Source of the DNA: Microglena sp. YARC
Lineage: Eukaryota; Chlorophyta; Chlorophyceae; Chlamydomonadales; Chlamydomonadaceae
NCBI GenBank assembly: GCA_022414725.1
Contig: JAJSRW010000264.1
Location: 1-64,000 of the forward strand
Reading direction: 5' to 3'
Length of the DNA: 64,000 nucleotides
Both the position numbers and the translations under genes were made by a program. This document shows positions 1 through 64,000 of the stretch, in pieces. The notes under the pieces were generated by a model. The model had not been told where the DNA came from. It was given only the letters and a program-made list of their open reading frames with translations, and did not search any database. Within the stretch, counting starts at the first letter, position 1; each line of letters begins with the position of its first letter.

Positions 1-3000
1 TCAATGCCAACACTCCTTTTTTTCATTACCCCTCCCCACAACGGAGATTGTGCATGGAGACAATTGCTGTGGCCACTGGGATGGTGTTTCGGAGCTTGAT
101 ATCATATCACCAGTCGATCATCTACTGCCTTGTACAATTTATAGATTTAGTCGTGTATGAGTGAGGTATCTTTGGTGGTAGGTTATAGGTGTAGTTATAA
201 TGTGCTAGGGGCCTACTTTTGGTTACCTAAACTTCCTCTCCCCTTCCCCACAGCAGAACATCCTGTCCTCTGGGCGCACGCGAGCTAGTTGTGATGGAAG
301 ATAGGCTGATGGGATGAGTTCAAGCTGGAGCACACCCACTGCCATTGTTCGTAATTAATCACCCCTGCCTGTACAATCTATAGAAAGGAGGCTTTACAAC
401 ATAGGCATAGTTCATGTAGTAGTAATGTAGGGGTATAACTAACTCCTTCCTTTCTGCCCCACAGGCGGAACTCCTTTCCTCTGGGACAAGCAGCGGAGAT
501 GTGTAATGGAAGGACCAATGCTATGGGATGAGTTTAATGCATTTGACAACACATCTATCGTCTACTGACCTGTACAACGATAGAATAAAAAGTGTGATAT
601 AGGTTTAAGGTAATAACGCCTTGTCGCTCGTGTTGTAGATTCAAACTGAACTCCTTCTCTTTCTCCACGAGGTCAAGAACTTCTGATCCAGGCTGGGAGA
701 GTGAGCGGTAGATTGTGATCGGAGACAAGGCTGAAGAGCAATGAGTTCAAAGATTGAATCACAGCCCATTGTCTTTAAACGACAGATTGGCCTGAATTCG
801 CGCTATACATATATTTCAATTTCTCGGTATAATAAACTCCTATCCCTTCTCCACAGGCGGAACTTCTGTCCTCTGGACGAGCAGCAGAGATTGTGATGGA
901 GACAAACGGCTAGTGGGTCATGAGTTTAACGCTAGAAACTCAGTCGATGCGGGGATACAGAAGGAGGGCTTGGCTGACTATCGCTAACTTTCCTTGGAGC
1001 CTGACCTCCCTCTTGATTGTGTCAGAAAAGCATTCCAGCATGTGAAGGTGCTGTTTTGTGCGCGGGAGGCCTGTGGGTGTGTGCGGGGGGGGGGGCTGGC
1101 GATGGGGTGGGGGCTGACCTCCCTCCTCTGATTGTGATTTGGGAGGAGATGATCCAGCATGGTCAGCCTGTGGTTGTGGGGGTGCTTTGTTGCACTGGCA
1201 TGAGGAACTTGATCAAAGCGTCGGTTTGTTGTGAAGCCTTTTGTTGTGTGTGTGTGGTGGGGGGGGAGGGCTGTGGGGGCGGCGGCTGACCTCCCTCCTC
1301 TGATGTTGTCAGAGGAGATGATCCAGCATTGTGGAAGTGTTGAGGGGCCTGATGTCGGGGGGGTCTTAGTACCAAAGCCTGGCAGGGTTTGAGTGTCATT
1401 TGGTGTGTGTGTGGTGCTGGGGGTGGGGGGGGGCTTGTTTTTGTACTGTGGGGGGAAGGGAGCCGTGGCGGTGGACTGGCCACCCTCCTCTGATGCTCAG
1501 ATGGTCGTCGGGAGTGAATTGATGACAGTCAGGTTGTAAGTGTGGGGGGGCCCCGGTGTCTTATAGGTTGTGGGCGCTTGTACCGAGGCTTGAGATTTGT
1601 TTGTGGGAGCCTGTGTAGGGCGGCTTGGATAACCTTTAGAACTCTTCCCTGCGTTGTGTCAGAGGAGTGGATGATCGAAGCATGTGAAGTCACTTGGCGA
1701 GCGGGTGACTTGGTTAGCACGAAGATGGTTGGGATTCGTTTTCAATATCGTCTGTTTTGCTCAGATGAATTTGTCAGGAAGCTGATGATTCGGCATGTGA
1801 AGGGTCAAGTTGGGGAGGCAGGTACTTTTGTAGCCACGGGCCCAGGTTGTAAGATTCACGTTTTCAATCTGTTCTTTGCTCACTATGAATGGTCAGAGGC
1901 AAGGATAATCCGAGCACATAGGTGTAACGCGTCAGCTGCATAGTTGTAAAGGGTCAATTGAGGCACAGGTACTTCGTAGCACGATGGGGCCTTTGTGGGT
2001 ATTCGTTTTCTTCAATTCTACTTTTTGCTCAATGAATTGTCAGAGGACAGAATGGATTCGACGGCATGGTGAAGGGTCAGTTTGGGAGGCAATTGTATCT
2101 TGTAGCACGGTGATTGGGTTCTGTTTTCAATCTGTTTTTTGCTCAATGAATTGTTCAAGAGGACGCAGATGATTCGACCATTGTGCTAAAAAGGTCAGTT
2201 TGCGGAGGCAGAGGGTACTACTGTAGCCCACGTGTGTTGGGAATTCGTTTTCAATCTGCTTTGTTGCTCAATGATGGTCAGAGGAGCATGCATCGAGCGA
2301 TGTGAAGGTCAGATTGGGGGGGCAGGACTTGTAACATACGGTAATCTCCCGTTTTCGTTAACGATTGGCTCAAATGGTTGAGTTCGTTCGGTGAAATCGG
2401 GCAAAAGGGTTGCAGGATTAAGGTTTGGATCCCTTTGGGAGGTGCACATTCGCGTTTTGTCCTGTGTGTCACTGGCTTGTCAACATGCTCATAGTTAGCA
2501 CTGTGTGCTCCAGTAAATAGTAGCAAGCCCGTTCTTCTAGTTGCCGTTAAGACAGGGCTCTTAATCCCACGCCCACCAGGCATTATCAGCTCACCTGTTG
2601 TAACATGGCGTTGGAGTAGTATTGGGGTTTGTTGCCGGGGCTTGATGAAACTAGCTTGCGATTTTTGGGAATATGAGTATTCTCAATATGTTTACTTGGC
2701 GGGTGAAGGGGGGAGAGGGGGAGGCAGGGTGGAGCACGTCGGGGGAAGGGGGAGGGGGGAGGGGCGGAGGGGGGGGGGGGGACTTGTAGGTGTATGAAAG
2801 GGGAGGGTCCAGGATGGGGGGATTGTAATAGGATGAAACGGGGGGGGCGGGGACTTGTCGTTGCAATAGATTCATGAACGGAGTTGGAGGGGGGGGGCTG
2901 TAGAGGGAGCGGCCCTTGTTAGGAGAAATGAACGGGCAGAGCGCAGGGGGGGGACCTTGCGGATAGAAGGAGTGTCGGGATGGACGGGGTGGATCGTCGG

Positions 3001-4950: not shown

Positions 4951-7900
4951 TTCCCCCCCCCCACTCCCTCCCCCTCCCCCCACACCGCCCCCCCCCCCCT
5001 CCCCCCCCCTTCGTGTTTCTCTCTTTTGTGTCCGTTTGATGTCACTTTTGAAAATCATCACAATTGTCAAAAAATTCCAACCATACCACAATTGTTGATG
5101 ATGACTACTACTATGGAATGGCGGCCATGGCGCAACGTGAAAGGCCCCCCCTTAGCTTCCATTGCCGTATGATGATCAACGTGAGCATTACAAATATGTC
5201 AAATCATTAAATCAAATTTCTGTTGATGACTCCACATGATGGAGCAAATGGACAACTGGAAGGCCTCCCCTGCTTCCAATTGTCGTGATTTGATTTTGCA
5301 TCACACAAGTTGATTGATGAATCACATGGGGGCAATGGGCAACTGGAGGACCCCCTGTCCATTGCCGTGATTGTCATTGAACATTACAATTGTCAAAAAT
5401 CAAACATTCCCAATTGTGATTGAATATTCATTGATGGGAAATGGTAAAGTGGCAGTCACACCTGCTTCCATTGCCCTATTTTTGTTTGCCATCCTTAACA
5501 TAGTCATCTTGCAGTGTGTGTGTTTTACATTTCATGCTTTGTGAGCTTTAGACTGTATTCGCACTCAATACTTCTAGGGTGGGGGTTGCCAAGAAAAAAG
5601 TGCTGTACTGCATCTCGCTTTGGATAGAGCTACTATCTGCCGTTTAAACAAACAAAAAAAAAGCCAAAAAAAAAAGTTGTAAAAAAAGTTAGAGGGTCTA
5701 GAGGGTTCAAAAGGTTTTTTCACCCAAAGCGGCCCCCGGTATTTTTCTTAAAAACCTTTTTTCCCCCTATAAATCCCACGTTTTGAGCAATCTTACAAAG
5801 ATGGTAGAGCATACTGGAATGGGCACGAAAGATCCTTTCGAAATGAAACCCATTTAAGGGGGGTAGCGGTGAGTATCGGGTTTTAGGAGGCGCGGGGGGG
5901 TAAAAAAAAAAACTGTTCTTCAACCTTATTTTTCAACTTTCTTCAACTTTATTTTCCTCCAGTGTGTATGACAACCTCCACCCAATTCCACACTCTCCCA
6001 TCATGTCAACTCGGGACACCATATTTGAATAAACATGCGGTGCTCCAATAATGCACTGTTCTCTCCTGCCCCCCCTGCAATCAATGGTATGAAGTAAGTT
6101 CATTAACAGCGTATATCTGGTATATCAAAATAAGCTGCATATATTTTATTTTCTTACCAACAGTTGTGTATGACAACTAAGCTGTTAGATATTTTATTTT
6201 CTGTATAAACAGTCATTACCAAATAGCTGTAGAATTGCTTTTTTATTAAACAGCTTATGTACATAATAGCTGTAAATATTTATTTACTTATAATCAGTTA
6301 CATAACTCAAAGTAAAAGCTGTAGATACTTTTAGCGTTTACCATTCACTAGAACAGTATGTTTTCTCACGTTGTATAGAAAACTAAGCCTGTGGGATGTT
6401 TTAGTTGTTAATTATGAATAGTTACATTACAAAATAAGCTTCTATCAAGTAATTTTTAAATTTATAAACAGTTAACAATCATTATGTTCTTATTGTAACC
6501 ATTACGCAGTATGCGTGTATTTAATTCACCTGCAGGATAAGAAGATGGGTTTGGACGAGGTCTGAACGGTCACACCCGTGCCTTTGCTGAGATGATTTCC
6601 TCATTAGCGATGGCACCCATTAGCGGAGATTGGAAAATGACATCCTCCCAGAGCTACTTGAGGCAAGGCCAATGCCAAGGGAGTCAAAGGTGGGATAAAC
6701 ACACAACAAGCAACACCACAACACATAGCACCATAGCACATAGCACACACACACAGACTACACATATATACTGATTAAACACAACACACAATACACACAC
6801 TTCACAACACACAAACACCAGAGCTACTTGAGGCATGCCCCAATGCCCAAGGGAGTCAAGTGGAGAATAAACACACAAACACACAACACAGAGCACTGTA
6901 ACACACCACACTCACAATCACAATATATATGATTAAACACAACACAACAAACCACGACTACATGATGGGCAGGTCCAATGCCAGGGGCAGTTGAAGGTGG
7001 AAAAACACACAACACAACAGCACCCACAACGAGCACACACCAAACAACACAACCACACAACTCACAACTACTATGAGGGCCGAAGGCCACAATTCCCAAG
7101 GGCGTCAAGGGGATACACACACATACCACATGATATCTGCACATACAGGCACATTGAACATAGACACGCACAGGAACAGTATAAAACCCATGCACACGCA
7201 CGAGCACACAAGACGCGCACACATGCCCATACCACTCTCAAACGCGCCACGCACACACACATCATAAGAAACACTCTCAATCACACACGCACCACACACA
7301 CACATGCGCCCAGACCACTCGCAAACGCGGCACACGCCACACACACATGCACCAGAACACTCTAAATCACACACACAACACACACATGCACCAGACCACT
7401 CTCAAACGCGGCAACACGCACACACACATTCATAGAACACTCTTCAATCACACACACACACACACACACTATGCACCCAAAACACTCTCAATCACCACGC
7501 ACACACACATCACTAGACCACTTGCAAACTCGCAACGCACACACACAGCACCAGAACACTCTAAAACGCACCACATGTTACCAAACTTGCACCATAACAC
7601 TCTCAAACGCACACACACATGCACACAAGCACCAGACCACTCTCAAACGCGCACACACCACACACACAAGCACCAGACCACACTCAAACGGCGCACACAA
7701 ACAGAACACCCACAAGCGACACAGCGACCCAAAACACCTGACAAAACTTACAAACACCACAAACATACATACAAACAACACACAAAATATGCACTTCAAA
7801 ACACACGCACAAAACACTTCACACACACATATATACACACAAACGTAATAGTTATCACATACTCATGACGTATTGAAAAAAACGAATTGTATACCGTGCT

Positions 7901-8475
7901 TTCAAATCAAGATCCGCAGGGAAAACAATTCAAATCCCCAAATCCCCAAATCCCAACCTCACAAACCCCAAAACCCAAAACCAAAACACCAAAGACCGAA
8001 CCAACCCAAAATCAAATTCCAAAACAAAAATCCCCAACAAAATCCAGGACTATTAATCGACAGAAGGGTCTCATCAATTGATTCAAACTCTGTGTGGATG
8101 CAACCCAAATATGATTGCTTTCCAGGTTGAGGTCTTCAAATCCCCGAACTCCAGACCTGAAATCCCCAAACTCAAATCCCCAAATCCCAAACCTCAGAAC
8201 CCTAAACCCTAAATCCATAATCAGAAATCAAAACAAAATACCCAAAACCCAAAAACGCAGGACTACACGACAAAAAGGGTCTCATTACCATGATCACACG
8301 AGGCGCCATCATCGAAATTGATCACCACTGTGTTTGATGCCAACGCAAAAGCACTGGCGGAGTATAGGGGGCAGACCAACTCCAAGGTTCTTGAGGGCCA
8401 GTGCATGCGCTATGAGTAAGGAGGGTGAACCCCGCCCTCATGAAGGAGTTGCTCATGAAGAAGTTGGACGAGTGA
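1..8475 (+). CDS. gatB: GatB, organellar Glu-tRNA(Gln) amidotransferase subunit B, 3' part, multi-exon
   Basis: GatB is the subunit of the GatCAB amidotransferase that works with GatA to convert misacylated Glu-tRNA(Gln) to Gln-tRNA(Gln); in eukaryotes it acts in plastids and mitochondria. Five exon blocks occur in the order of the GatB protein. They carry, allowing single-base indels, the helix ending METRLWDE (857-935), the signature LADYR plus EPDLPPL (945-1047), PELPEK-like residues (3701 on), the middle domain KKMGLDEV to PELLEA (6536-6689), and the YqeY-like tail from DANAKALAEYRG to NPALMKELLMKKLDE and a stop (8261-8475). The catalytic-core exons lie before the window. Frames break inside several exons, so this is either a noisy consensus or a decayed gene; order and conservation favour a real gene. 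Almost every exon edge is tandemly duplicated into the adjoining intron. Confidence 0.8.
30..940 (+). repeat. gatB: About 205-bp tandem array of a gatB exon (METRLWDE exon), 5 copies
   Basis: Five diverged units start near 36, 254, 465, 670 and 857. Most have a pyrimidine-rich tract and ccacag acceptor, then an exon reading approximately AELLSSGRAAEIVMETRLW before DEF. The last unit (857-935) is the most intact and is taken as the exon in use; it still has an indel after the ATG GAG ACA codons. The spacer between units is intronic. Divergence between units argues against a simple assembly stutter. Confidence 0.7.
945..1047 (+). CDS. gatB: gatB exon with YRYFPEPDLP-type signature
   Basis: The exon reads GGLADYR, a short indel, then LEPDLPPL and a SEE..IQHVK-like tail, ending at gtgaag before a GT. 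LADYRYFPEPDLPPL is the diagnostic GatB signature at the end of the catalytic cradle domain, which makes this the strongest single piece of evidence for the gene. Later copies of its second half follow downstream. Confidence 0.75.
1048..2335 (+). repeat. gatB: Tandem copies of the gatB EPDLPPL..SEEMIQHVK exon end
   Basis: At least eight further diverged copies occur near 1109, 1286, 1474, 1639, 1757, 1877, 2026, 2138 and 2264. The first ones keep the reading ADLPPLIVIWEEMIQH. Later ones shorten to a core like ELSEEMIRHVKGQ followed by a gtcag-type donor and a roughly 120-bp intronic spacer ending in a cgttttcaatctg motif. The period drifts from about 180 to 120 bp along the array, as if a subunit had been re-amplified. 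Confidence 0.6.
2363..2592 (+). mobile_element. tRNA-derived SINE, copy 1
   Basis: A tRNA-like head has an A-box-like tggctcaaatggttgag and a B-box-like ggtttggatccc (2422-2433). The body contains agacagggctctt and ends at cacgcccaccaggcatt. The same body and tail recur at 10,100, 29,800, 32,161 and 42,280, which defines the family. Confidence 0.6.
2640..3530. repeat. G-rich degenerate minisatellite in gatB intron
   Basis: Irregular units of about 35-60 bp centre on ggacttgt, then atgaacgg, then a run of G. No coding frame is supported. The unit has no visible exon piece, so it appears purely intronic. Confidence 0.7.
3701..3835 (+). CDS. gatB: gatB exon after the EPDLPPL exon (PELPEK region)
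   Basis: After a ccccccag acceptor the sequence reads ETMPEL and then, with indels, PEKRRTLLGLGLTPR. This matches the GatB linker helix MPELP..RR.RYL..GLS that follows the signature exon. Downstream residues resemble ALTFKTSAG..FD and are too corrupted to delimit. A partial second copy (tcgcgggctgttt...tggcagataagaccgcattc) lies at 4117-4180. The exon end is approximate. Confidence 0.55.
3836..4690. other. gatB intron with one partial exon duplication
   Basis: It contains the imperfect repeat of the exon 3' end described above (3816-3985 against 4117-4180). From 4190 to 4690 I see no gene, tRNA or clear repeat. Confidence 0.5.
4690..5020. repeat. Poly-C / CCCCG low-complexity tract
   Basis: About 330 bp of C runs with occasional G, A and T, including one nearly pure C stretch at 4920-4970. 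Open frames on both strands here follow from composition only. Confidence 0.9.
5095..5500. repeat. Tandem repeat of about 100-120 bp, 4 units
   Basis: Units begin near 5108, 5228, 5313 and 5430. Each contains a gatg-rich start, a ggcaatgg..aactggaggcc core, ccattgccgtgatt, and an acattacaattgtcaaaa end. No exon match was found. Confidence 0.6.
5501..6110. other. Intronic sequence, no gene seen
   Basis: Unique AT-rich sequence with several poly-A tracts (5650-5690, 5900-5915). Nothing coding is supported. Confidence 0.5.
6120..6480. repeat. AT-rich tandem repeat, about 55-60 bp unit
   Basis: About six diverged units share agctgtagatattttatttt followed by tataaacagttacat. It lies immediately 5' of the next gatB exon. 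Confidence 0.6.
6536..6689 (+). CDS. gatB: gatB middle-domain exon
   Basis: After a tcacctgcag acceptor it reads DKKMGLDEV, then (indel) AFAEMIS, a region matching LIADGTISGKIGK, then PELLEA and NAKGVK before a GT. In GatB this segment links the helical domain to the YqeY-like tail. At least two single-base indels are needed to keep frame. Confidence 0.7.
6650..7112 (+). repeat. gatB: Four copies of the 3' end of the gatB middle-domain exon
   Basis: The exon end (agctacttgaggca, then aatgccaagggagtcaa) recurs at 6820-6862, 6955-6996 and 7066-7112, each followed by a G-GTGGA or similar donor and CA-rich intron. The second copy reads LLEACPNAQGSQ. Copies decay with distance from the exon. Confidence 0.65.
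6690..7865. repeat. CA-rich minisatellite, about 40-bp unit
   Basis: Units of the type caccagaccactctcaaacg plus (CA)n fill the intron after the middle-domain exon. Both strands have long frames only because stop codons are rare in CA/TG repeats. Confidence 0.8.
7870..8260. repeat. Two-unit repeat rich in aaatcccc, with a decayed copy of the last gatB exon start
   Basis: Two units of about 230 bp each contain repeated aaatccccaaatccc and end with ggacta, a cgaca(g/a)a core and agggtctcat. In the second unit this is the start of the terminal gatB exon (8261); in the first (8041-8080) it is a broken duplicate. Confidence 0.6.
8261..8475 (+). CDS. gatB: gatB terminal exon (YqeY-like tail domain) with stop
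   Basis: The exon reads KGLIT with a shifted TDEAAI..IV region, then DANAKALAEYRG, then (indels) GQCMR and SKG, then VNPALMKELLMKKLDE and TGA at 8473-8475. The GatB tail consensus YRGGKTK..GF..GQVMK...G.ANP.L...LL.KKL matches throughout. The tail binds the tRNA elbow. The acceptor is the cgcag at 8256-8260. Confidence 0.75.
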
Positions 8476-8599
8476 AGCAGTTACATAGTAGTCCCGAACA
8501 GAGCCGGTAAGAGTGTTAAGGACAACCCGAAAAATATGTTATTGAAAAAAACAAATTGTTTGCAAAGGTCTAGGGTAGCTCAGATAGATATGTATTGAG

Positions 8600-9955
8600 T
8601 GAATGCCTAATCAGCCTCCAGAGTCCTGGTGGTGCGATATGAAGTAAGGAGGATGCACCTCCCGCCCTCATGAAGAGCTTCTGTGGAAGAAGTGGACAGT
8701 GAAGTCGCGTACACATGGTTACCCTTAAGCCTATTTGGCCTAACCCTGGACTGTACATGCAGACTGGGGTACTGGGTTAAGTGTAATCAGTTGCACTAGG
8801 GTCAAGCTCTACGGTCGGCTGTGTATAGACATTGCCCGCATTTATGTTGTCAGTTACACGGTTGCAAGTCTGGATGCTCAGAAGATCCTGGGTGTTGTAG
8901 AATTAACATTATCACTGTAGCACGAACTCCAGCCCCCTCCGTCCGCGTTTCTTATAAAAACATTGTTTGGGGCTCAGTTTCATCAGATGTCTTTTTCTTT
9001 TAAGCCCTTCATATACGAGTTGTGCAAGTCCCTTAGCCTATTTGGCCTACCCCTGGAGCTGTAAACACAATACATAACATACGGTGAGTGCATGGATCTA
9101 ATAGCCTCCAGGTTTGATGTGCCGTGAGTGCAGAGGAGGGTTGAAGTGGTGAGACCCTGCACCTCATGGAGGAGCTTCTGTTGAAGAAGTTGGACGAGTG
9201 AAGCAGTTACAGTGCAGTCCCGAACAGAGCGGTAAGAGGTGTAAAGACAACCTGTAAATATGTTATTGAAAACAAATGTTGCAATGATGCAAGTCTGTGT
9301 AGCTCAGATAGATCTGGGTTGAGTGAATGGCCTATCAGCCTCCAGGAGTCCTGGTGGTGCGGATGAGTAAGGGGAGGATGCACCCCGCCCTCATGAAGGA
9401 GCTTCTGTGGAAGAAGTTGGACGAGTGAAGCAGTCACTGTGTAGTCCTGAACATAGAGCGGCTAGGAGTGTAAGACATCCCCCAAAATATGTTATTGAAA
9501 AACAAAATGTTGAAATTAGATACAAGGCCTGTGTAGCTCAGATATATCTGTATTATTGGAGTGCATTGGTCAATGCAGCCTCCATGTGATGCACAATGAG
9601 TGAAGAGGAGGGAGGGTGAACTCCGCCCTCATGCAGGAGCTGCTGTTTTTGAAGGAAGTTGGACGAGTGAAGCTTACCCATAACTGGTCCTGGGTTAAGT
9701 GTAAGTGTGTTATTAACCGCCAAGTTTGCACTAAGGTCAAGTAAAGCATGGAGGTCACCGGTGTAAAGAGTTAAAGACATGCCCACATTGTGTTGTTGCC
9801 AGACGGTTGCAACTTGCAAGTCTGGGTTGATCAGATAAATTTGGGTTGTGTGCATGGTCTAACAGGCTCCAGGTGGTGCAGATGAGTACGTCGGGGGGGG
9901 GGACCTCGCCCTTATGAAGGAGTTGCCTGTCGGAAGAAGTTGACGAGTGAAGCAG
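8600..9955 (+). repeat. gatB: About 235-bp tandem copies of the gatB terminal exon end, each with acceptor and stop
   Basis: Five further copies (near 8620, 9111, 9346, 9582 and 9868) carry a cag-type acceptor, cctccag, a region readable as RMSKG with indels, then HPALMKELL and KKLDE before TGA. The linker includes ccgaacagagcggtaagagtg, atgttattgaaaa, and gtagctcagatagatctg. Each copy would supply an alternative last exon. Confidence 0.7.
8903..9070 (-). mobile_element. Dispersed repeat R2, long copy
   Basis: This matches, in reverse, the copy at 35,768-35,930 over about 165 bp. It runs from atcactgtagcacgaactc through catcag and aagccctt to agcctatttggcctacccc. A short fragment also lies at 8724-8760. 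It interrupts the gatB terminal-exon array. Confidence 0.6.
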
Positions 9956-10099
9956 TTACAAGTGTAGTCGTCCGAACACAGCACGGTAGGAGGGCTGTAA
10001 AGCCATCCCCAAACATGTTATATTGGAAAAACAACAACATGATAGGCGGTAACAAGTCTGGATTAGGTCAGATGATCTACATCGATCGCTATGAACTAA

Positions 10100-16311: not shown

Positions 16312-17028
16312 ATGTCGAAAGACAAGGGGATCCCCCCACCTCCAGAATTCGACGATGCTGGATTCGACGGCCCTGAATGCATCCCCAACGAGCAGCTTCA
16401 GCAGAGTCTGTCTCTGTTGTTCCAGCAGATGATGCCCCTTGCGAATGTCGTGGACAGCCAGAAGCGCTGCGCGCTCGATGCTGTGAACGCTGCCATCGAG
16501 TCTTCACTCACGGCCGTTGACATGTGTTACATAGAGAGGGACCCCGAGGCAGTGACTGAGATATCTAAGTCTGACTTTAGTTGGGTGGTGGAACCGGTGC
16601 CCCCACCATGTAGGATGGACACCTGGCTGAGGGCTGCCATCCCAGAAGCCAACATGGCCTCATTGCCACAATCCTTTTCCATGGCCCGCTTCCTCAACAC
16701 CCAAGCTAGCAGTCATAATTTGGCGAGGCCAGGCGGTGGGAGAAAGTCCCGACCAGCAAGTGGGGAGTCAGCACGGAGTTGTGTGGCTTCACCTAAACGA
16801 GCGGCCCCCCCTGTGCCTGGCCTGGAACGGCACAAAATGGGTGGGCTTGCCGAGGTAATGGCAGCACAGGCAAGCCAAAATAGGCTACGGGAGGAGCTGG
16901 CTCTCAGAAAGGCTCAAGAGCAGCTGGTTAAGGACCAGGAGGCAAAGGATGAGGCTGATAAAGCCCGCCTCATAGCTTTGCAGAAGGAGTTGAAGGGCAA
17001 GGAATACACATATGACCACAAGGGCCAG
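16312..17028 (+). CDS. C2orf81-like exon 1
   Basis: 239 codons open from ATG to the donor CAG/GTGAGT, phase 0. It encodes the acidic/proline start MSKDKGIPPPPEFDDAG, a helical region, EPVPPPCRMDTWLRAAIP, a Ser/Arg-rich linker and a charged coiled-coil segment ending EYTYDHKGQ. Codon use and the absence of indels contrast with the gatB exons. Confidence 0.8.
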
Positions 17029-27400: not shown

Positions 27401-27420
27401 AAGAAGAATTTTTCACCTCT

Positions 27421-42889: not shown

Positions 42890-42968
42890 TGCGACGCAAG
42901 CCTGATTTCAGGATTGTGGCACCCTACACCGTGCTACGCCACAATTCCGAAATCAGGCTCGCATCGCA
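42890..42968. mobile_element. Foldback element, 31-bp arms
   Basis: Arms 42,890-42,920 and 42,938-42,968 pair with 4 mismatches (left tgcgacgcaagcctgatttc..., right ...gaaatcaggctcgcatcgca), loop 17 bp. A half copy (gacgcaagcctgat, ggattgtggca, tagcaccgta) lies at 51,172-51,215. It overlaps the last codons of the membrane-protein gene. Confidence 0.7.
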
Positions 42969-43356
42969 ACATTTGGTGCACAACCGGACCTAGAGAAATC
43001 TGAAGAAGAGAAAAAATCCTCATGGATAGTTTGTGGATAGAGGGGGTCCCATAAGAGGGGGCCTGCCGGTTGGGGGTTGGCCATGGGGGGCAGCCGGCCG
43101 TTGGCAGGCATCGGAGTTGGTGCCTGTAATGCCGGGTGCACGCCTCCAGGGTTGGGCATAGCCCCCCCAGGGGTAGCTTGGCCTGGTGCAGCAGCAGACT
43201 GTTGTGCTGTCCCGTACGGCATCTGACCACCGGCAGGTTGCCCAGGCTTGGCTGTTTCGGGGGGGCCTGGTGAGGAGGCTGAGGGGGATACTGTACTGCT
43301 GCTTCTACCCCTGCAGCATGCCCATATGACGCCTGCTATCATGGCTACAGCAACGC
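42953..43356 (-). CDS. Membrane-protein terminal exon
   Basis: Acceptor (minus) ctacctccccag. It starts by completing Gly, then VAVAMIAGVIWACCRGR, then a tail rich in Pro, Gly, Ala and Gln (AKPGQPAGGQMPYGTAQQ). The final residues NVAMRA and the stop fall in the foldback element, so the original C-terminus was probably different. Confidence 0.6.
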
Positions 43357-52300: not shown

Positions 52301-55300
52301 TTAGTCCCTGAGATAAATCACCAAACTAATCACATATCCAGGAATCCAAAGGCCTCCGCTGTTGTGATGTTGCCAAAAATAAATTATATTTCTCAAAACT
52401 AGTGGTCACTTAGGTCCCTGAAGATAAACACTCACCAAACTAATCACGTAGCCAGGGAATCAGGCCTCCGCTGTTGTGATATAATTATATTTCTCAAAAA
52501 CTAGTGGTCACTTAGTCCCTGAAGATAAAACACTATAGTGGTCTGAAGATAAAACACTCACCAAACTAATCACATATCCAGGGAATCCAAAGGCCTCCGC
52601 TGTTGTGATGTTGCCAAAAATATAATTCATATTTCTAAAACTAGTGGTCACTTAGGTCCCTGAAGAAACACTAAAACACACATCAGGAATCCAAACCTCC
52701 GCTGTTGTATTTGCCAAAAATATAATATTTTCTCAAAACTATGGTCACTTAGGGTCCACCAAAGGCCTCCGCTGTTGTGATGTTGCCAAAAATATAATTA
52801 TATTTCTCAAAAACTAGTGGTCACTTAGGTCTGAAGATAAACACTCACCAAACTAATCACATATCCAGGGAATCCAAAGGCCTCCGCTGTTGTGATGTTG
52901 CCAAAAATATAATTATATTTCTCAAAACTAGTGGTCACTTAGGTCCTGACTGAGATAAACACTCACCAAACTAATCACATATCCAGGGAATCCAAAGGCC
53001 TCCGTGTTGTGATGTTGCCAAAAATATAATTATATTTCTCAAAACTAGTGGTCAACTTAGGTCCCTGAAGATAAACACTCACCAAACTAATCACATATCC
53101 AGGGAATCCAAAGGCCTCCGCTGTTGTGATGTTGCCAAAAATATAATTATATTTCTCAAAACTAGTGGTCACTTAGGTCCCTGAAGATAAACACTCACCA
53201 AACTAATCACATATCCAGGGAATCCAAAGGCCTCCGCTGTTGTGATGTTGCCAAAAATATAATTATATTCTCAAACTATGGTCACTTAGGTCTGAAGATA
53301 AACACTCACCAAACTAAACATATCCAGGGAATCACAAAAACCCTGGAATCCAAAGGCCTCCGCTGTTGTGATGTTGCAAAACAACTCAGTGGTCACTTAG
53401 TCCCTGAAGATAAACACTCACCAAACTAATCACATATCCAGGGAATCCAAAGGCCTCCGCTGTTGTGATGTTGCCAAAAATATAATTATAATTTCTCAAA
53501 ACTAGTGGTCACGTAGGTCCCTGAAGATAAACACTCACCAAACTAATCAACATATCCAGGAATCAAAGGCCTCCGCTGTTGTGATGTTGCCAAAAATATA
53601 ATTATATTTCTCAAAACTAGTGGTCACTTTAGTCCCTCACTTAGGTCCCTTACTCGATAAACACTCACCAAACTACACATATCCATCCGCTGATGTTGCC
53701 AAATATAATTTATTTCAAAAACTTAGTTAAGGTCCCTGAAGATAAACACTCACCAAACTAAATACATATCCAGGGAATCCAAAGGTCCCTGTTGTGATGT
53801 TGCCAAAAATATAATTATACTTTCTCAAAACTAGTGGTCACTTAGGTCCCTGAAGATAAACACTCACCAAACTAATCACATATCCAGGGAATCAACCTCC
53901 TGCTGTTGTGATGTTGCCAAAAATATAATTATATTTCTCAAAACTAGTGGTCACTTAGGTCCCTGAAGATAACACACTCACCAAACTAATCACATATCCA
54001 GGGAATCCAAAGGCCTCCGCTGTTGTGATGTTGCCAAAAATATAATTATATTTCTCAAAACTAGTGGTCACTTAGGTCCCTGAAGATAAACACTCACCAA
54101 AACTAATCACATATCCAGGGAATCCAAAGGCCTCCGCTGTTGTGATGTTGCCAAAATCTGTGGTCACTTAGGTCCCTGAAGATAAACACTCACCAAACTA
54201 ATCACATATCCAGGGAATCCAAAGGCCTCCGCTGTTGTGATGTTGCCAAAAATATAATTATATTTCTCAAAACTAGTGGTCACTTAGGTCCCTGAAGATA
54301 AACACTCACCAAACTAATCACATATCCAGGGAATCCAAAGGCCTCCGCTGTTGTGATGTTGCCAAAAATATAATTATATTTCTCAAAACTAGTGGTCACT
54401 TAGGTCCCTGAAGATAAACACTCACCAAAAAAACTAATCACATATCCAGGGAATCCAAAGGCCTCCGCTGTTGTGATGTTGCCAAAAATATAATTATATT
54501 TCTCAAAACTAGTGGTCACTTAGGTCCCTGAAGATAAACACTCACCAAACTAATCACATATCCAGGGAATCCAACGGCCTCCGCTTGTTGTGATGTTGCC
54601 TTAAAAATATAATTATATCCTTCTCAAATTAACTATCCAGTGGTCACTTAGGTCCAAAACTGTAAACACTCACCAAACTAATCACATATCCAGGGAATCC
54701 AAAGGCCTCCGCTGTTGTGATGTTGCCAAAAATATAATTATATTTCTCAAAACTAGTGGTCACTTAGGTCCCTGAAGATAAACACTCACCAAACTAATCA
54801 CATATCCAGGGAATCCAAAGGCCTCCGCTGTTGTGATGTTGCCAAAAATATAATTATATTTCTCAAAACTAGTGGTCACTTAGGTCCCTGAAGATAAACA
54901 CTCACCAAACTAATTCACATATCCAGGGAATCCAAAGGCCTCCGCTGTTGTGATGTTGCCAAAAATATAATTATATTTCTTCAAAACTAGTGGTCACTTA
55001 GGTCCCTGAAGATAAACACTCACCAAACTAATCACATATCCAGGGAATCCAAAGGCCTCCGCTGTTGTGATGTTGCCAAAAAATATAATTATATTTCTCA
55101 AAACTAGTGGTCACTTAAGGTCCCTGAAGATAAAACACTCACAAACTAATCACATATCCAGGGAATCCAAAGGCCTCCGCTGTTGTGATGTTGCCAAAAA
55201 TATAATTATATTTCTCAAAAACTATGGTCACTTAGGTCCCTGAAGATAAAACACTCACCAAAAACTAATCACATATCCAGGGAATCCAAAGGCCTCCGCT

Positions 55301-58300
55301 GTTGTGATGTTGCCAAAAATATAATTATATTTCTCAAAACTAGTGGTCACTTAGGTCCCTGAAGATAAAACACTCACCAAACTAATCACATATCCAGGGA
55401 ATCCAAAGGCCTCCGCTGTTTGTTGATGTTTGCCAAAAATATAATTTTCTCATAGTGGTCACTTTCCCTCACTCAAAACTATCCAGGGAATGGTCCGCTG
55501 TTGTGATGTTGCCAAAAATTATATTTCTCAAAACTAGGGTTCCTTAGCTGAAGATAAACACTCACCAAACACTAATCACATATCCAGGGAATCCAAAGGC
55601 CTCCGCTGTTGTGATGTTGCCAAAAATATAATTATATTTCTCAAACTAGTGGTCACTTAGGTCCCTGAAGATAAAACACTCACCAAACTAATCACATATC
55701 CAGGGAATCCAAAGGCCCTCCGCTGTTGTGATGTTGCCAAAAATATAATTATATTTCTCAAAACTAGTGGTCACTTAGGTCCCTGAAGATAAACACTCAC
55801 CAAAAACTAATCACATATCCAGGGAATCCAAAGGCCTCCGCTGTTGTGATGTTGCCAAAAACTATAATTATATTTCTCAAAACTAGTGGTCACTTAGGTC
55901 CCTGAAGATAAACACTCACCAAACTAATCACATATCCAGGGAATCCAAAGGCCTCCGCTGTTGTGATGTTGCCAAAAATATAATTATATTTCTTCAAACT
56001 AGTGGTCACTTAGGTCCCTGAAAGATAAACACTCACCAAACTAATCACATATCCAGGGAATCCAAAGGCCTCCGCTGTTGTGATGTTGCCAAAAATATAT
56101 ATTATATTTCTCAAAACTAGTGGTCATTAGGTCCCTGAGATAAACACTCACCAAACTAATCACATATCCAGCCAAAGGCCTCCGCTGTTGTGATGTTGCC
56201 AAAAAATATAATTATATTTCTCAAAACTAGTGGTCACTTAGGTCCCTGAAGATAAACACTCACCAAAACTAATCCCATATCCAGGGAATCCAAAGCCTCC
56301 GCTGTTGTGATGTTGCCAAAAATATAATTATATTCTCAAAACTAGTGGTCACTTAGGTCCCTGAAGATAAACACTCACCAAACTAATCACATATCCAGGG
56401 AATCCAAAGGCCTCCGCTGTTGTGATGTTGCCAAAAATATAATTATATTTCTCAAAACTAGTGGTCACTTAGGTCCTGAAGATTAAACACTCACCAAACT
56501 AATCACATATCCAGGGAATCCAAAGGCCTCCGCTGTTGTGATGTTGCCAAAAATATAATTATATTTCTCAAAACTAGTGGTCACTTAGGTCCCTGAAAGA
56601 TAAAACACTCACCAAACTAATCACATATCCAGGGAATCCAAAGGCCTCCGCTGTTGTGATGTTGCCAAAAAATATAATTATATTTCTCAAAACTAGTGGT
56701 CACTTAGGTCCTGAAGATAAACACTCACCAAACTAATCACATATCCAGGGAATCCAAAGGCCTCCGCTGTTGTGATGTTGCCAAAAATATAATTATATTT
56801 CTCAAAATAGTGGTCACTTAGGTCCCTGAAGATAAACACTCACCAAACTAATCACATATCCAGGGAATCCAAAGGCCTCCGCTGTTGTGATGTTGCCAAA
56901 AATATAATTATATTTCTCAAAAACTAGTGGTCACTTAGGTCCCTGAAGATAAACACTCACCAAACTAATCACATATCCAGGGAATCCAAAATCAATAGGC
57001 CTCCGCTGTTGTGATGTTGCCAAAAATATAATTATCCATTTTCTCAAAACTAGTGGTCACTTAGGTCCCTGAAGATAAACACTCACCAAAACCTAATAAA
57101 TCCACATCCATCCAGGGATCCAAAGGCTCCGCTTTGTGATGTTGCCAAAATATAATTATATTTCTCAAAACTAGTGGTCACTTAGGTCCCTGAAGAATAA
57201 AAATTAATTATATTTCTCACTCACCCTGAAGATAAACACTAATCACATATCCAGGGAATCAAAGGCCTCCGCTGTTGTGATGTTGCCAAAAATATAATTC
57301 TTATATTTCTCAAAACTAGTGGTTCCTTAGGTCCCTGAAGATAAACACTCACCAAAACTAATCACATATCCAGGGAATCCAAAGGCCTCCGCTGTTGTGA
57401 TGTTGCCAAAAATATAATATATTTCTCAAAACTAGTGTCACTTAGGTCCCTGAGATAAACACTCACCAAACTAATCACATATCCAGGGAATCCAAAGGCC
57501 TCCGCTGTTGTGATGTTGCCAAAAATATAATTATATTTCTCAAAACTAGTGGTCACTTAGGTCCCTGAAGATAAACACTCACCAAACTAATCACATATCC
57601 AGGGAATCCAAAGGCCTCCGCTGTTGTGATGTTGCCAAAAATATAATTATATTTCTCAAAAACTAGTGGTCACTTAGGTCCCTGAAGATAAACACTCACC
57701 AAACTAATCACATATCCAGGAATCCAAAGGCCTCCGCTGTTGTGAAAAATGTTCACTTAGCCAAAAACATACATAATTATATTTCTCAAAACTAGTGGTC
57801 ACTTAGGTCCCTGAAGATAAACACTCACCAAACTAATCACATATCCAGGGAATCCAAAGGCCTCCGCTGTTGTGATGTTGCCAAAAATATAATTATATTT
57901 CTCAAAACTAGTGGTCACTTAGGTCCCTGAAGATAAATACACTCACCAAAAACTAATCACATATCCAGGAATCCACTTATTCTAAAACTAGTGTCACTTA
58001 GGTCCCTGACTCATATTATCCAGGGAATCCAAAGGCCTCCGCTGTTGTGATGTTGCCAAAAATATTAATTATATTTCTCAAAACTAGTGGTCACTTAGGT
58101 CCTCTGAAGATAAAACACTCACCAACTAATCACATATCCAGGGAATCCAAAGGCCTCCGCTGTTGTGATGTTGCCAAAAATATAATTATATTTCTCAAAA
58201 ACTAGTGGTCACTTAGGTCCCTGAAGATAAACACTCACCAAACTAATCACATATCCAGGGAATCCAAAGGCCTCCGCTGTTGTGATGTTGCCCAAAAAAT

Positions 58301-61300
58301 ATAATTATATTTCTCAAAACTAGTGGTCACTTAAGGTCCCTGAAGATAAACACACTCAAAAAAACTAATCACATATCCAGGGAATCCAAAGGCCTCCGCT
58401 GTTGTGATGTTGCCAAAAATATAATTATATTTCTCAAAACTAGTGGTCACTTAGGTCCCTGAAGATAAACACTCACCAAATAATCAATATCCAGGGAATC
58501 CAAAGGCCTCCGCTGTTGTGATGTTGCCAAAAATATAATTATATTTCTCAAAACTAGTGTCACTTAGGTCCCTGAAGATAAACACTCACCAAACTAATCA
58601 CATATCCAGGGAATCCAAGGCCTCCGCTGTGGTGATGTTGCCAAAAAATATAATTATATTTCTCAAAACTGTGGTCACTTAGGCTCCCTGAAGATAAACA
58701 CCCACCACCAAAACTAATCACAAACTATCCAGGAATCATGGTCAAGGCCTTCCGCTGTTGTGATGTTGCCCAAAAATATAATTATATTTCTCAAAACTAG
58801 TGGTTCACTTAGGTCCCTGAAGATAAACACCCACCAAACTAATCACATATCCAGGGAATCCCAAAGGCCTCCGCTGTTGTGATGTTGCCAAAAAATATAA
58901 TTCATATTTTCTCAAAAACTAGTGGTCAACTTAGGTCCCTGAAGATAAACACTCACCAAACTAATCACATATCCAGGGAATCCAAAGGCCCTCCGCTGTT
59001 GTTGATGTTGCCAAAATGTTATAATTATATTTTCTCAAACTAGTGGTCACTTAGGTCCCTGAAGATAAACACTCACCAAACTAATCACATATCCAGGGAA
59101 TCAAAGGCCTCCGCTGTTGTGATGTTGCCAAAAATATAATTATATTTCTCAAAACTAGTGGTCACCTTAGGTCCCTGAAGATAAACACTCACCAAACTAA
59201 TCACATATTCCAGGGAATCCCAAGGCCTCCGCGTTGTGATGTTGCCAAACAATATAATTATATTTCTCAAAAACTAGTGGTCACTTAGGTTCCCTGAGAT
59301 AAAACACCCACAAACTAATTCACATATCCAGGGACAAAAAGGCTGTGTGATGTTGCCAAAATTATTGCCTTAGGTCCTGAAGGGGAATCCAAAGGCTTGT
59401 TTGTGATGTTGCGTGGATAAACACTTATGCCTGAGAGGATAACAAAGGGAATACCAAAGCCTCAAACCCTAAAGATTAAACTGTACTATGTTTCTGCCAA
59501 ACCGGTAATTATCATATTTCAAAACTAGTGGTCACTTAGGTCCCCTGAAGTATCTGCGCCCGCCAGGCGGTTATGTATGCCACTCCCAAACATCCACCAT
59601 AATTAAAACTTCTACTAGTGGTCACTTAGGTCCCTGAGATAAAACACTCACCAAACTTAATCACATATCCAGGAGGAAATCCAGAAAGGCCTCCGCTGTT
59701 GTGATGTTGCCAAAAATATTAATTATTCATTTCTTCAAACTTAGTGGTCACTTAGTCCTGAAGATTAAACCTCCCAAACTAATCACATATTCCAAGGGAA
59801 TCCAAAGGCCTCCGCTGTTGTGATGTTGCCAAAAATATAATTATTTTCTCAAAACTAGTGGTCAAACTAATCCACATATCCCAGAATCTCAAAATTCTAA
59901 TCATTCCAGGCCAATTGGCCTCCGATGTTGTGATGTTGCAAAAATATATTATATTTCTCAAAAACCTTCCGCTGGTGAAAAATCACCCACCAAACCATTA
60001 AGGGCTGAAAAAATCATCGTTTGCAGGTAATAATCAAAAACTAGGGGAATACCAAAAGGAGACCTCCGCAAGTGGTCCATCTTGATGCGCCCCAAAATTA
60101 TAATAGTACAAGATAAACTCAAAACTAGTGGTCCACAACCACCTGAAGATAAACACTCACCAAACTAATCCATACTTTTTCTCAGGGAATCCAAAGGCTC
60201 CGTGTTGTGATGTTGCCTAATCTAATAGTATTATTTATATCTCTCCAAATGGTATTAGGTCTAAGATAAACAGTCACAACTCAATCAATATCCATGGGAT
60301 ATCAAAAGGCTCCCTGTTGTGATGCTTGCCAAAATATAATTAGTATTTCTCAAACTAGTGGTTCCCTAGGTCCTGAGATAAACCTCACCAAATAATAATT
60401 CCAGGAATCTCCGCTGTTTGTGGTTGCCAAAAATATATTATATTTCTCAAAACTAGTGGTCATTAAGGTCCCTGAAGATAAACATCAAAACTCAATTCAA
60501 TATCAGGGAATCAAAGGCCTCCGCTGTGTGATGTTGCAACAATATAATTCTATTTTTCAAAACTAGTGGTCCTTAGGTCCTGAAGATAACACTCACAAAC
60601 TAATCACAATCAGGGAATCCAAAGGCCTCCGTGTTGTGATGTTGCAAAATATAATTAATATTTCTCAAACACATAGTGGTCACTTAGGTCTGAAATAACC
60701 CACCAACTTCACATTCAGGGGAATCAAGGCCTTCCGCTGTTGTGAATTTGCAAAATCAATTTATTTTCAAAACTAGTGGTCAATTAGGTCCTGAAAGATA
60801 AACACTTCAACAAACTAATCAACACTATCAGGGAATCAAAGCTCGTGTTTGTGATGTTGCAAATATAATTATATTTCTCAACTCGTGGTCACTTAGGTTT
60901 TGATACGATAACACTCCACAACTAATACATATGGGAATCTCAAAGGCCTCCGCTGTTGTGATGTTGCCAAAAATATATTATATTTCTCAAAACTAGTGGT
61001 CACTTTAGGTCCCTGAAGATAAACACCCACTCAAATAATCACACATATATCCAGGGTAATCCAAAGGCCTCCGCTATTGCTTGTGATGTTGCCAAACATA
61101 TAATTATATTTCTCAAAACTAGTGGTCACTTAGTCCCTGAAGAAAAACACTCACCCAACTATCAATCATATCCCAGGATCCAAAAGTGCACCCCGCCTGT
61201 TGTGATGTTGCCCAAAATATAATCCCATATATCTCTCAAAACTAGCGTCACTCTACAGCGTCACCTGCGAGCAAGAACAACCACTCCACCAAAACTCTAA

Positions 61301-64000
61301 TTCCACATCATCCCAGGGACCATCCCAAAGGCCCTCCATGCACCTGCTTGTGATGTTGCCAATAAAATATAATTATATACTTTCTCCTCCAAAAACCTAG
61401 AGTGGTTCCACCCTTACGCGTCATCCTGAAGGGACTCCCAACAGCCCCCACCCATGCTGTGATGCTTGCAAACAAAACCTATCACTTTATATCTTCCATC
61501 AAACCACAACCGTCAAAACCAAAACTAATCACTATTATCCAGGGAATCCCAAGGCGCCTCCCGCCGTAAAGGCCTCACCGCTGTTGTGAACTGTCTGTTG
61601 CCACTCCGAAAAATATCAATATATTCTCAAAAAACTAGTGGTCCCACTTAGGTCCCCATGAAGCCCACCATAAACCACCTCACCCAAACTAATTTACACA
61701 TAATCCCCAGGGAATCCAAAGGCCCCTCCTCCGCTGATCCTGATGTTGGCTATACCTATCTTCTCATTCCAACTAGTGCTTCACTTAGTCCCTGAAAGAA
61801 TAACACACCCTCACCAACAACTAATCACCCCATCTCACCAGGCGGAGAACTCTCCAATACGCCTCCTCAACATGCTGTCTTGATGTTGCCACAAAATATC
61901 ATTAATCTCCATTCTCCCCCAAAACTGCCACTCTACCAGCGTCCCTGCAAAGATAAACACCCACCAAACCAATCACTATCAGGAATCAAAGGCCTCCCGC
62001 TGTTGTGATTGTTGCCTAAAAATATAATTATATTTCTCAAAAACTAGTGGTCACTAGGTCCCTGAAGCAAAACATCACCCAAAACTAATCACATATCCAG
62101 CCTGTCTTAGTGGACTCCAAAGCCTTCCGCTGTTGTGATGTGCAAAATACTTAATTAATATTTCTCAAAAACTAGTGGTCACTTAGAGGTCAGATAAACT
62201 ACACGCTCACCGAAACTTCATCACATATCCAGCCAGTCCAAAGGCCTCCGCTGTTGTGACTGTTGCCAAAAAATATTAATCTATATTTCTCAAACATAGT
62301 GAATAAACAACTCATTAATCACATATCCAGGAATCCAAAGCCTCCGCGCTGGGGGGGTCCTATTGTGATGATTGCCCAATACATATCACAATTATATTTG
62401 TTTCCAAAACTAGTTGATCACTTAGGTCCCTGAAGACATAAGCGACGGCCAGCTAATACACATATCACCATTCGGTCAAACTATGTTTGCCAAAAATATT
62501 AATTATATTTCTCACAAACTCTCTAGTTGGTCACTTATGGTCCCTGAAGATAAAACCCACCAGAACTAATCAGCATATATCCAGGGAATCCAAAGGCCTC
62601 CGCTGTTGTGTATGTTGCCAAAAATATAATTATATTTCTCAATTTTTCAAAACTAGTGGTCACTTAGGTCTCCCTGAAGATAACTATGCTCCACCAAAAC
62701 TAATCACATATCCAGGGAATCCAAAGGCCTCCGCTGTTGTGATGTTGCCCCACAATAAAAATATAATTATATTTCTCTCAAAACCTAGTGGTCACTTAGT
62801 CCCTGAAGTACACAACCTACACTTAAAACACCACCACCACCCGCTTCACATCCAGGGAATCTAAAGGCCTCCATGTGCCAAGGCTCCGTGTTGTATTATA
62901 ATTATATTTCTCAAAACTAGTGGTCAACTTAGGTCCCTAAGAATAAACACTCACCAATTCTAATCAATTCTCCACGGCGCAATTCCAGGCTCTTCCGCTG
63001 TCTCTGTCGATGTCGCGAAAAATTATAATTTTATTCTTTCTCAAAAACTAGGTGCCACTTTAGGTGCCCCTGAGATCAAACACCTACCAAACTAATCACA
63101 AAGATCATATCCAGGGAATCCAAAGGCCTCCGCTTTGATGTTGCCAAAAAATATAATTATAATTTCTCAAAACTAGTGGTCACTTAGTCCCTGAAGATAA
63201 ACACTCACCCAAACTTAATCACATATATCCAGGGGAAATTCCAAAGGGCCTCCGCTGTTGTGATGTTGCCAAAAATATAAATTATATTCTCAAAACTAGT
63301 GGTCACTCTAGGTCCCTGAAAGGATTAACACCCACCCAAACTAATCACATATCCAGGGAATCCAAAAAGGCTCCGCTGTTGTGATGTTGCCCAAAAATAT
63401 TAATTTATATTTCTCCAAAACTTAGTGTCACTTAGGTCCCTGAAGATAACACTCACCAAACTAATCACATAATATCCAGGGAATCCAAAAGGCCTTCGCT
63501 GTTGTGAATGTTTGCCAAAAATAATTATATTTCTCAAACTAGTGTCACTTATGCCCTGAAGATAAAACACTCACCAAACTAATCACATTATTCCAGGGAA
63601 TCCAAAGGCCTCCGGCTGTTGTGATGTTGCCAAAAATATAATTATTATTTCTCAAAACTAGTGGTCACTTAGGTCCTGAAGATAAACACTCACCAAACTA
63701 ATCACATATCCAGGAATCAAAGGCCTCCGCTGTTGTGATGTTGCCAAAAAATATAATTTATATTTCTTCAAAACTAGTGGTCACTTAGCGTCCCTGAAGA
63801 TAAACACTCACCAAAACTAATCACATATCCAGGGAATCCAAAGGCCTCCGGCTGCTTGTTGATGTTGCCAAAAATATAATAATATTTCTCAAAACTTAGT
63901 GGTCACTTAGGTCCCTAGATAAACACTCACAACTAATACATATCCAGGGAATCCAAAGGCCTCCGCTGTTTGTGATGTTGCCAAAAATATAATTATAATT
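42953..64000 (-). CDS. Single-pass membrane protein with satellite-filled introns, partial
   Basis: Read on the minus strand, exons join in consistent phase: a 38-nt exon (for example 51613-51576, EAFGFPGYVISS), 49010-48784, 45431-45244 and 43356-42953. The second begins MRIREIVDATG and ends SDSEAAFTGA. The third begins LSRSIESG and ends in a hydrophobic LIIAMASVAG that continues into the fourth, GVAVAMIAGVIWACCRGR, forming one transmembrane helix with a basic stop-transfer end. A Pro/Gly/Ala/Gln-rich cytoplasmic tail follows. The 5' exons lie beyond 64,000. I do not recognise the family; a cell-surface receptor-like protein is a guess. All four exons have tandem copies of themselves or of one edge. 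Confidence 0.6.
43365..43985. repeat. GGGGAGGG / GGTGAGGG minisatellite
   Basis: Purine-rich (G, A, few T) repeat with units like gggtgaggggaagggaggg, ending in a run of G at 43,958-43,981. It surrounds the duplicated TM-exon start. Confidence 0.9.
43440..43507 (-). repeat. Second copy of the TM exon start, with acceptor
   Basis: It repeats the acceptor and VAVAMIAGVIWACCRGR-coding start of the terminal exon, changing only a few bases. It lies 151 bp upstream (minus direction) of the exon in use, separated by G-rich (C-rich on minus) minisatellite. Confidence 0.85.
43986..45070. other. Intron with two short repeats
   Basis: A degenerate repeat of about 30 bp (aacttgctttgcgactattg) lies at 44,640-44,785, and a gatgtgaa repeat at 44,887-44,940. 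No exon of the membrane-protein gene is identified here. Confidence 0.45.
45073..45141 (-). repeat. Duplicate of the 3' part of the DELETLIIA exon, with donor
   Basis: The minus strand reads PDDVADELETLIIAIALVAG before G/GTTAG, the same end as the exon at 45,244. It is followed upstream by GTGTGT microsatellite. Confidence 0.85.
45244..45431 (-). CDS. Membrane-protein juxtamembrane exon
   Basis: 188 nt, acceptor ccccctgctag, donor GAG/GTTAGT (minus). It encodes LSRSIESGSFIQALRAANF, then LGPITLGNGAQPPPPDIP, then NDVADELETLIIAMASVAG. Its final hydrophobic residues form the first half of the transmembrane helix. Confidence 0.7.
45610..47031 (-). repeat. Acceptor plus 5' part of the juxtamembrane exon, four further copies
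   Basis: Copies end at acceptors (minus strand) at 45,721, 46,056, 46,823 and about 47,031. Each encodes an LSRSIESG..FIQALRAANFP-like peptide and TLGNGAQ before changing into GGT/GGG-rich intron. The last two carry 1-3-bp insertions. With the complete exon there are five copies. Confidence 0.85.
47040..48465. repeat. GGTGGGTGATGG minisatellite, about 110-bp higher-order unit
   Basis: Recurring blocks are gatgcagtgtgatggcgg, atgggtgggtgttggtggg, agatggtgggtggg and tattggtgggagatggtg. No exon sequence recognised. Confidence 0.85.
48660..48735 (-). repeat. Duplicate of the SDSEAAFTGA exon end, with donor
   Basis: About 75 bp copy of the 3' end of the exon at 48,784, with the same CCAG/GTGAG donor (minus) and one A/G change in the part readable as ANFNLEGIVSDSEAAFTGA. 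The flanking sequence at 48,466-48,655 is unique. Confidence 0.85.
48784..49010 (-). CDS. Membrane-protein exon MRIREIVD...SEAAFTGA
   Basis: 227 nt, acceptor acttctgcag, donor CCAG/GTGAG (minus), phase 0 in and 2 out. It encodes MRIREIVDATGTRRRGLLEA, then a Gly/Tyr-rich part, PPYPMTGLRSLLQVVPKARA, then LEGIVSDSEAAFTGA. No indel is needed and the codons look normal. Confidence 0.7.
49011..51130. repeat. 2.1 kb minisatellite (gtgtgggtaagcc / aaaggatgtggtgagg)
   Basis: About 25 units of 68-95 bp with gggtcagggttacgggtg, tgggtaagccttggggtaa, aggatgtgg and tgaggttttgggcaggg. It begins directly at the exon's acceptor side. An R2 fragment (49,062-49,115) is inserted near the start. Confidence 0.9.
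49062..49115 (+). mobile_element. Dispersed repeat R2, fragment
   Basis: tatgttacagtccagggg, then taggccaaataggctaaat and ttgcccaaccgtg. Confidence 0.7.
51131..51480. other. Unassigned, with half foldback element
   Basis: Contains gacgcaagcctgat to agcaccgta (51,172-51,215), related to the foldback at 42,890. No coding region. Confidence 0.5.
51480..64000 (-). repeat. 116-bp satellite of a 38-nt exon with both splice sites, roughly 105-110 copies
   Basis: The + strand unit is actagtggtcacttaggtcc, ctgaagataaacactcacca, aactaatcacatatccaggg, aatccaaaggcctccgctgt, tgtgatgttgccaaaaatat, aattatatttctcaaa (116 bp; for example starts at 54,272 and 54,388). On the minus strand it reads as intron ending atcacaacag, then the 38-nt exon readable as EAFGFPGYVIS, then the donor GTGAGT. 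The exon ends in phase with the next exon of the gene (49,010). Three diverged, longer units at 51,540-51,930 look like founder copies (exon 51,576-51,613). The array runs past the window end. From about 59,330 to 63,100 the consensus is heavily corrupted. Confidence 0.9.

Follow-up and report, generated by a model that had tools for sequence, protein, structure and literature searches.

Introns largely made of tandem arrays that take in many of the tested splice junctions in the green alga Microglena sp. YARC

Introduction

Introner elements, which form one dispersed family, are an example of repetitive DNA that shapes many introns of one genome. Human IFI6 (6-16) carries a minisatellite with a 12-bp unit at a splice donor. 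The tandem arrays described here resemble both, since many introns are shaped by repeats and since tandem repeats contain a splice donor. They differ from introners in being local to each junction, and from the IFI6 case in that the latter concerns a single gene and so short a unit.

A tandem duplication across an intron boundary has been described in the RdRp gene of potato (PMC4974935), in a paper that cites ATP2A1 and the fission yeast gene SPOG_01682 as further cases. As these cases are presented there, the duplicate spans either an intron–exon boundary or an AGGT within an exon, and its surplus copy is turned into intron, with several tandem copies in SPOG_01682; in these respects they are like the arrays of the present study. 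They appear in that account as isolated events that create a new intron, whereas here around one third, or more, of the junctions that were tested are affected and the introns are mostly lengthened. In human segmental duplications, internal tandem repeats have been reported at exon–intron boundaries (PMC2812944), and there too the expansion of a minisatellite over the boundary alters gene structure. The units summarized in that source average 30 bp in four copies and belong to recently duplicated genes, whereas the units here reach 100–300 bp and also occur in conserved single-function genes such as those of CCT.

The stretch of DNA analysed here, referred to as the window, is 64,000 nucleotides long. 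Minisatellites at exon–intron boundaries with units that span the splice junction were found both in the window (6 of 15 junctions) and in CCT genes elsewhere in the genome (17 of 46), and duplicated exon sequence within introns, as in intron gain by tandem duplication, was found in both sets. The genome of Cymbomonas tetramitiformis is repeat-rich with a GC content of 51–52%, and the portions of its two accounts considered here do not describe this array pattern (PMC5741210, PMC10675990). A first-pass annotation of the window had stated that no described genome is known to have such a general pattern. Isolated cases have been published, as outlined above; a report of a genome-wide pattern of exon-edge arrays was not found among the top-ranked matches in the openly licensed literature.

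Genes of the window

Three genes and a retroelement are listed with the arrays in Table 1. The C2orf81-like gene (C) is supported by eight homologues of exon 1 in a protein search, one of which (P0008) contains PF15479; exon 1 alone gave no match in Pfam. P0008 has further matches to exon 3 (E 0.003) and, at a weak E value of 0.066, to exon 5; exons 4 and 6 were placed by our own reading of P0008 against the DNA.

The membrane-protein gene (M) was read as identical to EukProt P0129 over residues 1–76, 94–133 and ~132–231, three blocks that correspond to the three exons. The last exon has a frame break relative to P0129 inside a C run, and the joined protein gave no match in Pfam. Between exons 1 and 2, in a zone of arrays, P0129 departs from M and looks as if two array copies had been combined into a hybrid, through splicing or as a prediction artefact. 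Since P0129 begins at M.A1, this site may be a start codon rather than an acceptor.

The gatB gene was identified from exon pieces that were joined by hand before the profile and structure searches. The joined pieces matched PF02637 with 27.2 bits (cut-off 27) and PDB 2df4_B with an E value of 3.8e-4. Single exon pieces gave no match, and the gene was missed in whole-frame scans of Pfam, PDB and NCBIfam in which stops were read as X. Genome-wide, PF02637 has three matches, each of them located on contig C2317 and interrupted by stops, and the gatB pieces of the window are absent from them. A search of the window against Rfam returned nothing at gathering thresholds. A segment of the retroelement (37529–38895) matches chromosome C1 with 96% identity over 1.4 kb; therefore, the window contig and the chromosomes belong to the same genome.

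Table 1. Positions of genes, junction arrays and other repeats in the window. D, donor; A, acceptor.
Feature	Position	Strand	Details
gatB acceptor-plus-exon array	228..912	+	228-298, 441-523, 649-732, 831-912
gatB middle array	1301..2345	+	6 copies besides query, two marginal
gatB donor-edge array	6645..7123	+	6645-6712, 6818-6878, 6952-7014, 7061-7123; then degraded CA-rich repeats
gatB last-exon copies	8406..10013	+	8406-8537, 8605-8704, 9103-9252, 9330-9490, 9596-9673, 9863-10013
C2orf81-like gene (C)	16313..29782	+	six exons, end of last exon not fixed
C exons	16313-17028, 19202-19496, 21403-21530, 23334-23454, 25461-25838, 29683 on	+	
C.D1, exon 1 end and donor	17001..17647	+	copies 17147-17208, 17308-17364, 17434-17491, 17591-17647
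C.A2, intron 3' edge array	19772..21402	+	26 hits; stops 2-3 bp before exon
C.D3, exon 3 end (x8) and its donor (x9)	21470..23159	+	GT microsatellite between
C.A3, 32-bp intron-edge repeats before exon 4	23239..23331	+	without exon bases
C.A4, acceptor and exon 5 start	24779..25540	+	copies 24779-24868, 24965-25063, 25123-25232, 25285-25394
C.D5, exon 5 end and donor	25700..27146	+	6 copies 25900 to 27146, sixth partial
C.A5, acceptor and 7 bp of last exon	28516..29690	+	5 copies
Non-LTR-type retroelement with reverse transcriptase	37192-40402	-	hits carry PF00078
Membrane-protein gene (M)	42960..49010	-	exons 48784-49010, 45244-45431, 42960-43356; last end approximate
M.A3, acceptor and exon 3 start	43270..43521	-	one copy 43425-43521
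M.D2, exon 2 end and donor	45054..45320	-	one copy 45054-45147
M.A2, acceptor and exon 2 start	45330..47042	-	copies 45620-45734, 45964-46069, 46720-46833, 46920-47042
M.D1, exon 1 end and 5-8 bp of intron	48652..48870	-	one copy 48652-48730
Array of stretch just upstream of M.A1	49198..51110	-	intron edge or upstream of start
116-bp satellite	51540..64000	.	runs beyond window end

Arrays at exon edges

Fifteen junctions were defined in C and M. Each was searched with a 120-bp probe centred on the junction for copies on the same strand within 6 kb, and a strict call was made where a copy had at least 12 bp on each side of the junction and a score of at least 60. Strict crossing copies were found at 6 of the 15 junctions: C.D1 (4 copies), C.A4 (4), C.D5 (5), M.A2 (4), M.D2 (1) and M.A3 (1). 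With a complexity filter the count is 5 of 15. Weaker arrays that are less shared on one side lie at C.D3, C.A5 and M.D1, while those at C.A2, C.A3 and M.A1 consist of the intron edge only. C.D2 gave low-complexity hits only, and the same junction test found no array at C.A1 and C.D4. The first-pass annotation had counted at least ten exon edges with arrays, a number that is reached if the weak and gatB arrays are included and that shrinks to six in C and M under the strict call.

Relative to the working edge, copies of the C and M families show 3–25% substitutions, plus gaps. Decay with distance from the working exon, which had been described as frequent, is clear in C.D3 and C.A5 only. Adjacent copies are closer than non-adjacent copies in six of seven families, two of which are the exon and donor parts of one array (C.D3). 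The difference is negligible for M.A2 (0.060 vs 0.066) and C.A5 (0.162 vs 0.164), and C.A4 has the reverse trend, its adjacent copies not being the more alike. As judged from copy similarity, the pattern fits local duplication that took place repeatedly, or unequal exchange.

The four gatB arrays lie in noisier sequence and, not counting the query, have 3, 3, 5 and 6 copies. They were compared with 40–60 mononucleotide shuffles, and two of the six copies in the middle array barely exceed the shuffle maximum.

Tandem repeats across the window

Tandem Repeats Finder covered 30594 of the 64000 bases of the window. In C and M, tandem repeats cover 64% of intron (10844/16971) and 9% of exon (219/2550) bases. 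When sampled positions with a crossing copy were compared with dinucleotide shuffles in 500-bp blocks, 41–69% were observed against 0–7.3% in six stretches, and shuffles of the whole stretch gave 0 such positions. Arrays also occur away from exon edges. A 97-bp array of 10 copies (23579–24536) lies wholly within C intron 4 and contains no exon edge, a 164-bp unit likewise forms purely intronic arrays, and intergenic DNA carries arrays as well. The sole repeat found in a long open reading frame is a 51-bp unit in four copies (36555–36757), a multiple of three that is in frame.

The largest array of the window has a unit of 116 bp, with 101 copies aligned between 51.4 and 64 kb, 86 of them over at least 100 bp and 6 perfect. 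Copies at 52–58 kb differ by 0.1–1.1% in substitutions and 2.7–7.7% in indel bases, and those at 60–62 kb by 3.4–3.9% and 14–22%, respectively. Being dominated by indels, these differences look like raw long-read error. On the minus strand, the unit has a 38-bp block between AG and GT. No protein support was found for this block, and a tie to an exon is unproven. The earlier figure of up to about 108 copies of an exon edge is corrected to these 101 aligned copies. Genome-wide, a 30-mer of the unit has 40 occurrences, every one in the window contig (C1146, 65,152 bp), which bears out the claim that arrays derive in each case from the local exon rather than from a shared repeat.

One dispersed family over many genes was looked for with this single 30-mer genome-wide and by comparing the window with L010–L025, and was not found. 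In sampled small contigs and chromosome stretches (L009–L021), tandem-repeat cover ranges from 0 to 76% and the observed/expected CpG ratio from 0.26 to 1.11, with repeat-rich samples tending toward low CpG. A 69-bp array of ~13 copies (34684–35582) in the window is apparently intergenic and has long open frames on both strands.

CCT genes outside the window

The assembly has 2390 contigs that add up to 568 Mb, and its chromosomes reach 195 Mb. A genome search with PF00118 produced 64 exon-level matches, which by our own count form ~12 clusters of two or more. Four compact CCT clusters were chosen from the match table before any sequence was viewed (L022–L025, on C5, C1, C2 and C3). Of their 46 junctions, 45 were defined by reading frame and splice signals and one by eye (L024 D2). 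Two overlong "introns" probably hold unmodelled exons, in L024 (5070–7198) and L025 (near 2701–2812).

Crossing copies were found at 17 of the 46 junctions under the strict call and at 20 under a loose one, in four genes on four chromosomes. Exon-edge arrays are a general feature of this genome. The strict copies of L022 are distributed over acceptors A2 (4), A3 (1), A4 (5) and A5 (2) and donors D5 (6) and D6 (2). In CCT, the divergence of copies from the working edge amounts to 13% in substitutions, so that the reported variation among copies is upheld in both gene sets. Tandem repeats cover 44–57% of intron and 4–26% of exon bases at the CCT loci. L022 and L025 are similar CCT genes whose amplified edges are partly different. 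An intron of L022 (7297–9103) holds copies of both flanking exon edges, and its paralogue L025 is continuous at that place (near 5816–5820). Recent intron gain in L022 and loss in L025 would be equally possible.

Junctions compared with intron and exon interiors

In the window, with the complexity filter, crossing copies were found at 5 of 15 junctions, at 926 of 1900 places in intron interiors (a set that takes in the stretch above M.A1, which is maybe not intron) and at 31 of 200 in exon interiors. The corresponding counts for CCT are 17 of 46, 1217 of 2607 and 82 of 351. Whichever of the six settings was used, junctions were lower than intron interiors in the window as well as in CCT, and there is no junction enrichment by this measure, in which the intron interiors are partly edge copies themselves and so no independent yardstick. 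Of the exon-interior positions, 14–17% in the window and 19–25% in CCT have copies. Among the edges of the window genes, a fraction of 0.87 have copies at places just within the intron, and a smaller fraction, 0.40, at the junction itself. The earlier expectation that arrays are tied to junctions was not upheld: within introns, their placement is roughly random relative to junctions, an outcome that the first-pass annotation, with the whole genome in view, had listed as a refutation.

Splice dinucleotides are intact in 34 of 35 copies in the window, where the null gives 26.9 on average (P 0.027), and in 43 of 55 copies in CCT compared to 41.3 expected (P 0.42), which is no excess preservation. 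The CCT result is the more trusted of the two because the window families were hand-picked. From these counts, the copies are read as probably neutral and not functional.

An unbiased model was then considered in which short introns grow to their observed lengths by tandem duplication at uniform positions, only duplications that span both junctions being rejected. Its variables are the start length and the share of growth left to microsatellites. The model mean for junctions with a crossing copy is 4.1–12.8 of 14 in the window (observed, 6) and 13.5–34.0 of 42 in CCT (observed, 16). Since this range covers the observed counts, an unbiased process suffices. Over most settings the model yields as many crossings as observed or more. 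If minisatellite units supply all of the growth, the model predicts clearly more crossings than are seen, and the real process would therefore start more often inside introns or be pruned at junctions.

Discussion

Tandem arrays make up a large part of the introns of the tested genes and enclose roughly one in three, or more, of the splice junctions examined. Arrays are present in seven genes and are fewer in exon interiors. These features are probably best explained by a genome in which short-range tandem duplication is frequent, is tolerated in introns and is filtered by purifying selection on exons. Such a genome would have a high rate of duplication of units of ~25–300 bp, often adjoining microsatellites, with slippage or unequal exchange as the presumed cause. 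Duplications within exons would mostly be eliminated by selection, while those wholly within introns would persist. A duplication over one junction would also persist if the exon-joined copy stays usable and is the only one used, since the extra copies of the exon edge would become intron. Over repeated rounds, introns that were once short would then have grown into arrays of their own edges, kilobases in length. Units above ~95 bp cross junctions and units of 20–41 bp mostly do not, a split that geometry predicts. The purely intronic and intergenic arrays and the in-frame 51-bp repeat also speak for this explanation. Against unbiased duplication stands the step at the window junctions, which the model does not predict and which calls either for additional selection on crossing duplications or for arrays with an origin inside introns. 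The model is also permissive, exon interiors are not free of copies, and splice dinucleotides in the window were kept more often than other positions.

The first-pass annotation had proposed repeated re-amplification seeded at splice sites. The repeated part is compatible with local duplication or unequal exchange; the aim at splice sites is not borne out. Edges might be re-amplified preferentially if DNA breaks or slips where junctions are transcribed or in the GT-rich or C-rich tracts that flank them, and many arrays do begin at a junction, with splice dinucleotides nearly always intact in the window copies. This is an unlikely account, as junctions are not enriched at any of the six settings in either set, the unbiased model suffices, the preservation of dinucleotides is not replicated in the CCT set, and purely intronic and intergenic arrays exist. 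The same preservation could be expected if copies were kept as spare or alternative splice sites or as recursive splicing points of long introns. AG/GT is intact in many arrays (5 sites at C.D1 and 10 at C.D3, working site included), and the hybrid-like P0129 could reflect splicing if it is not a prediction artefact. A role of this kind is nevertheless improbable, given the substitutions and gaps that the copies have accumulated and the absence of excess preservation in CCT.

Errors of reads or assembly, as raw long-read error or misjoined repeats, might account for the indel-dominated differences of the 116-bp array, the noisy gatB copies and the frame break in the C run of the last exon of M. 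As an explanation of the whole pattern this is very improbable, because substitutions dominate the divergence of the C, M and CCT arrays and the same pattern is present on chromosome-scale contigs. Hardly any credence can be given to a mobile element or introner family inserting at exon edges. Similar arrays do recur across introns of different genes, but their units are made of the local exon and the satellite 30-mer is confined to its contig. The window has 14 matches to L010–L025. The retroelement is the longest of them, and no match overlaps a copy of a junction array; one (26861–27028) lies between C.D5 copies.

A broader proposition is that introns are born and lengthened genome-wide, and still now, by serial junction duplication, with gain of the Rogers type, mostly known from isolated cases, as a main route of intron evolution. 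This seems doubtful, although it retains some plausibility; if true, the L022 intron at 7297–9103 would be one of the products.

A genome of this kind would let intron growth be measured. It would also be a place to ask by what means so many nearly perfect decoy sites are passed over by the splicing machinery, and whether new introns arise through tandem duplication. For practical work it carries a warning, since genes of this structure may be collapsed or misjoined in gene prediction and in assembly from short reads; the hybrid-like P0129 may be an instance.

As a minor observation, C intron 1 (17029–19201) has a GT/GGGT-rich start and a CACCC-rich end, and RNA pairing between them could bring its splice sites together.
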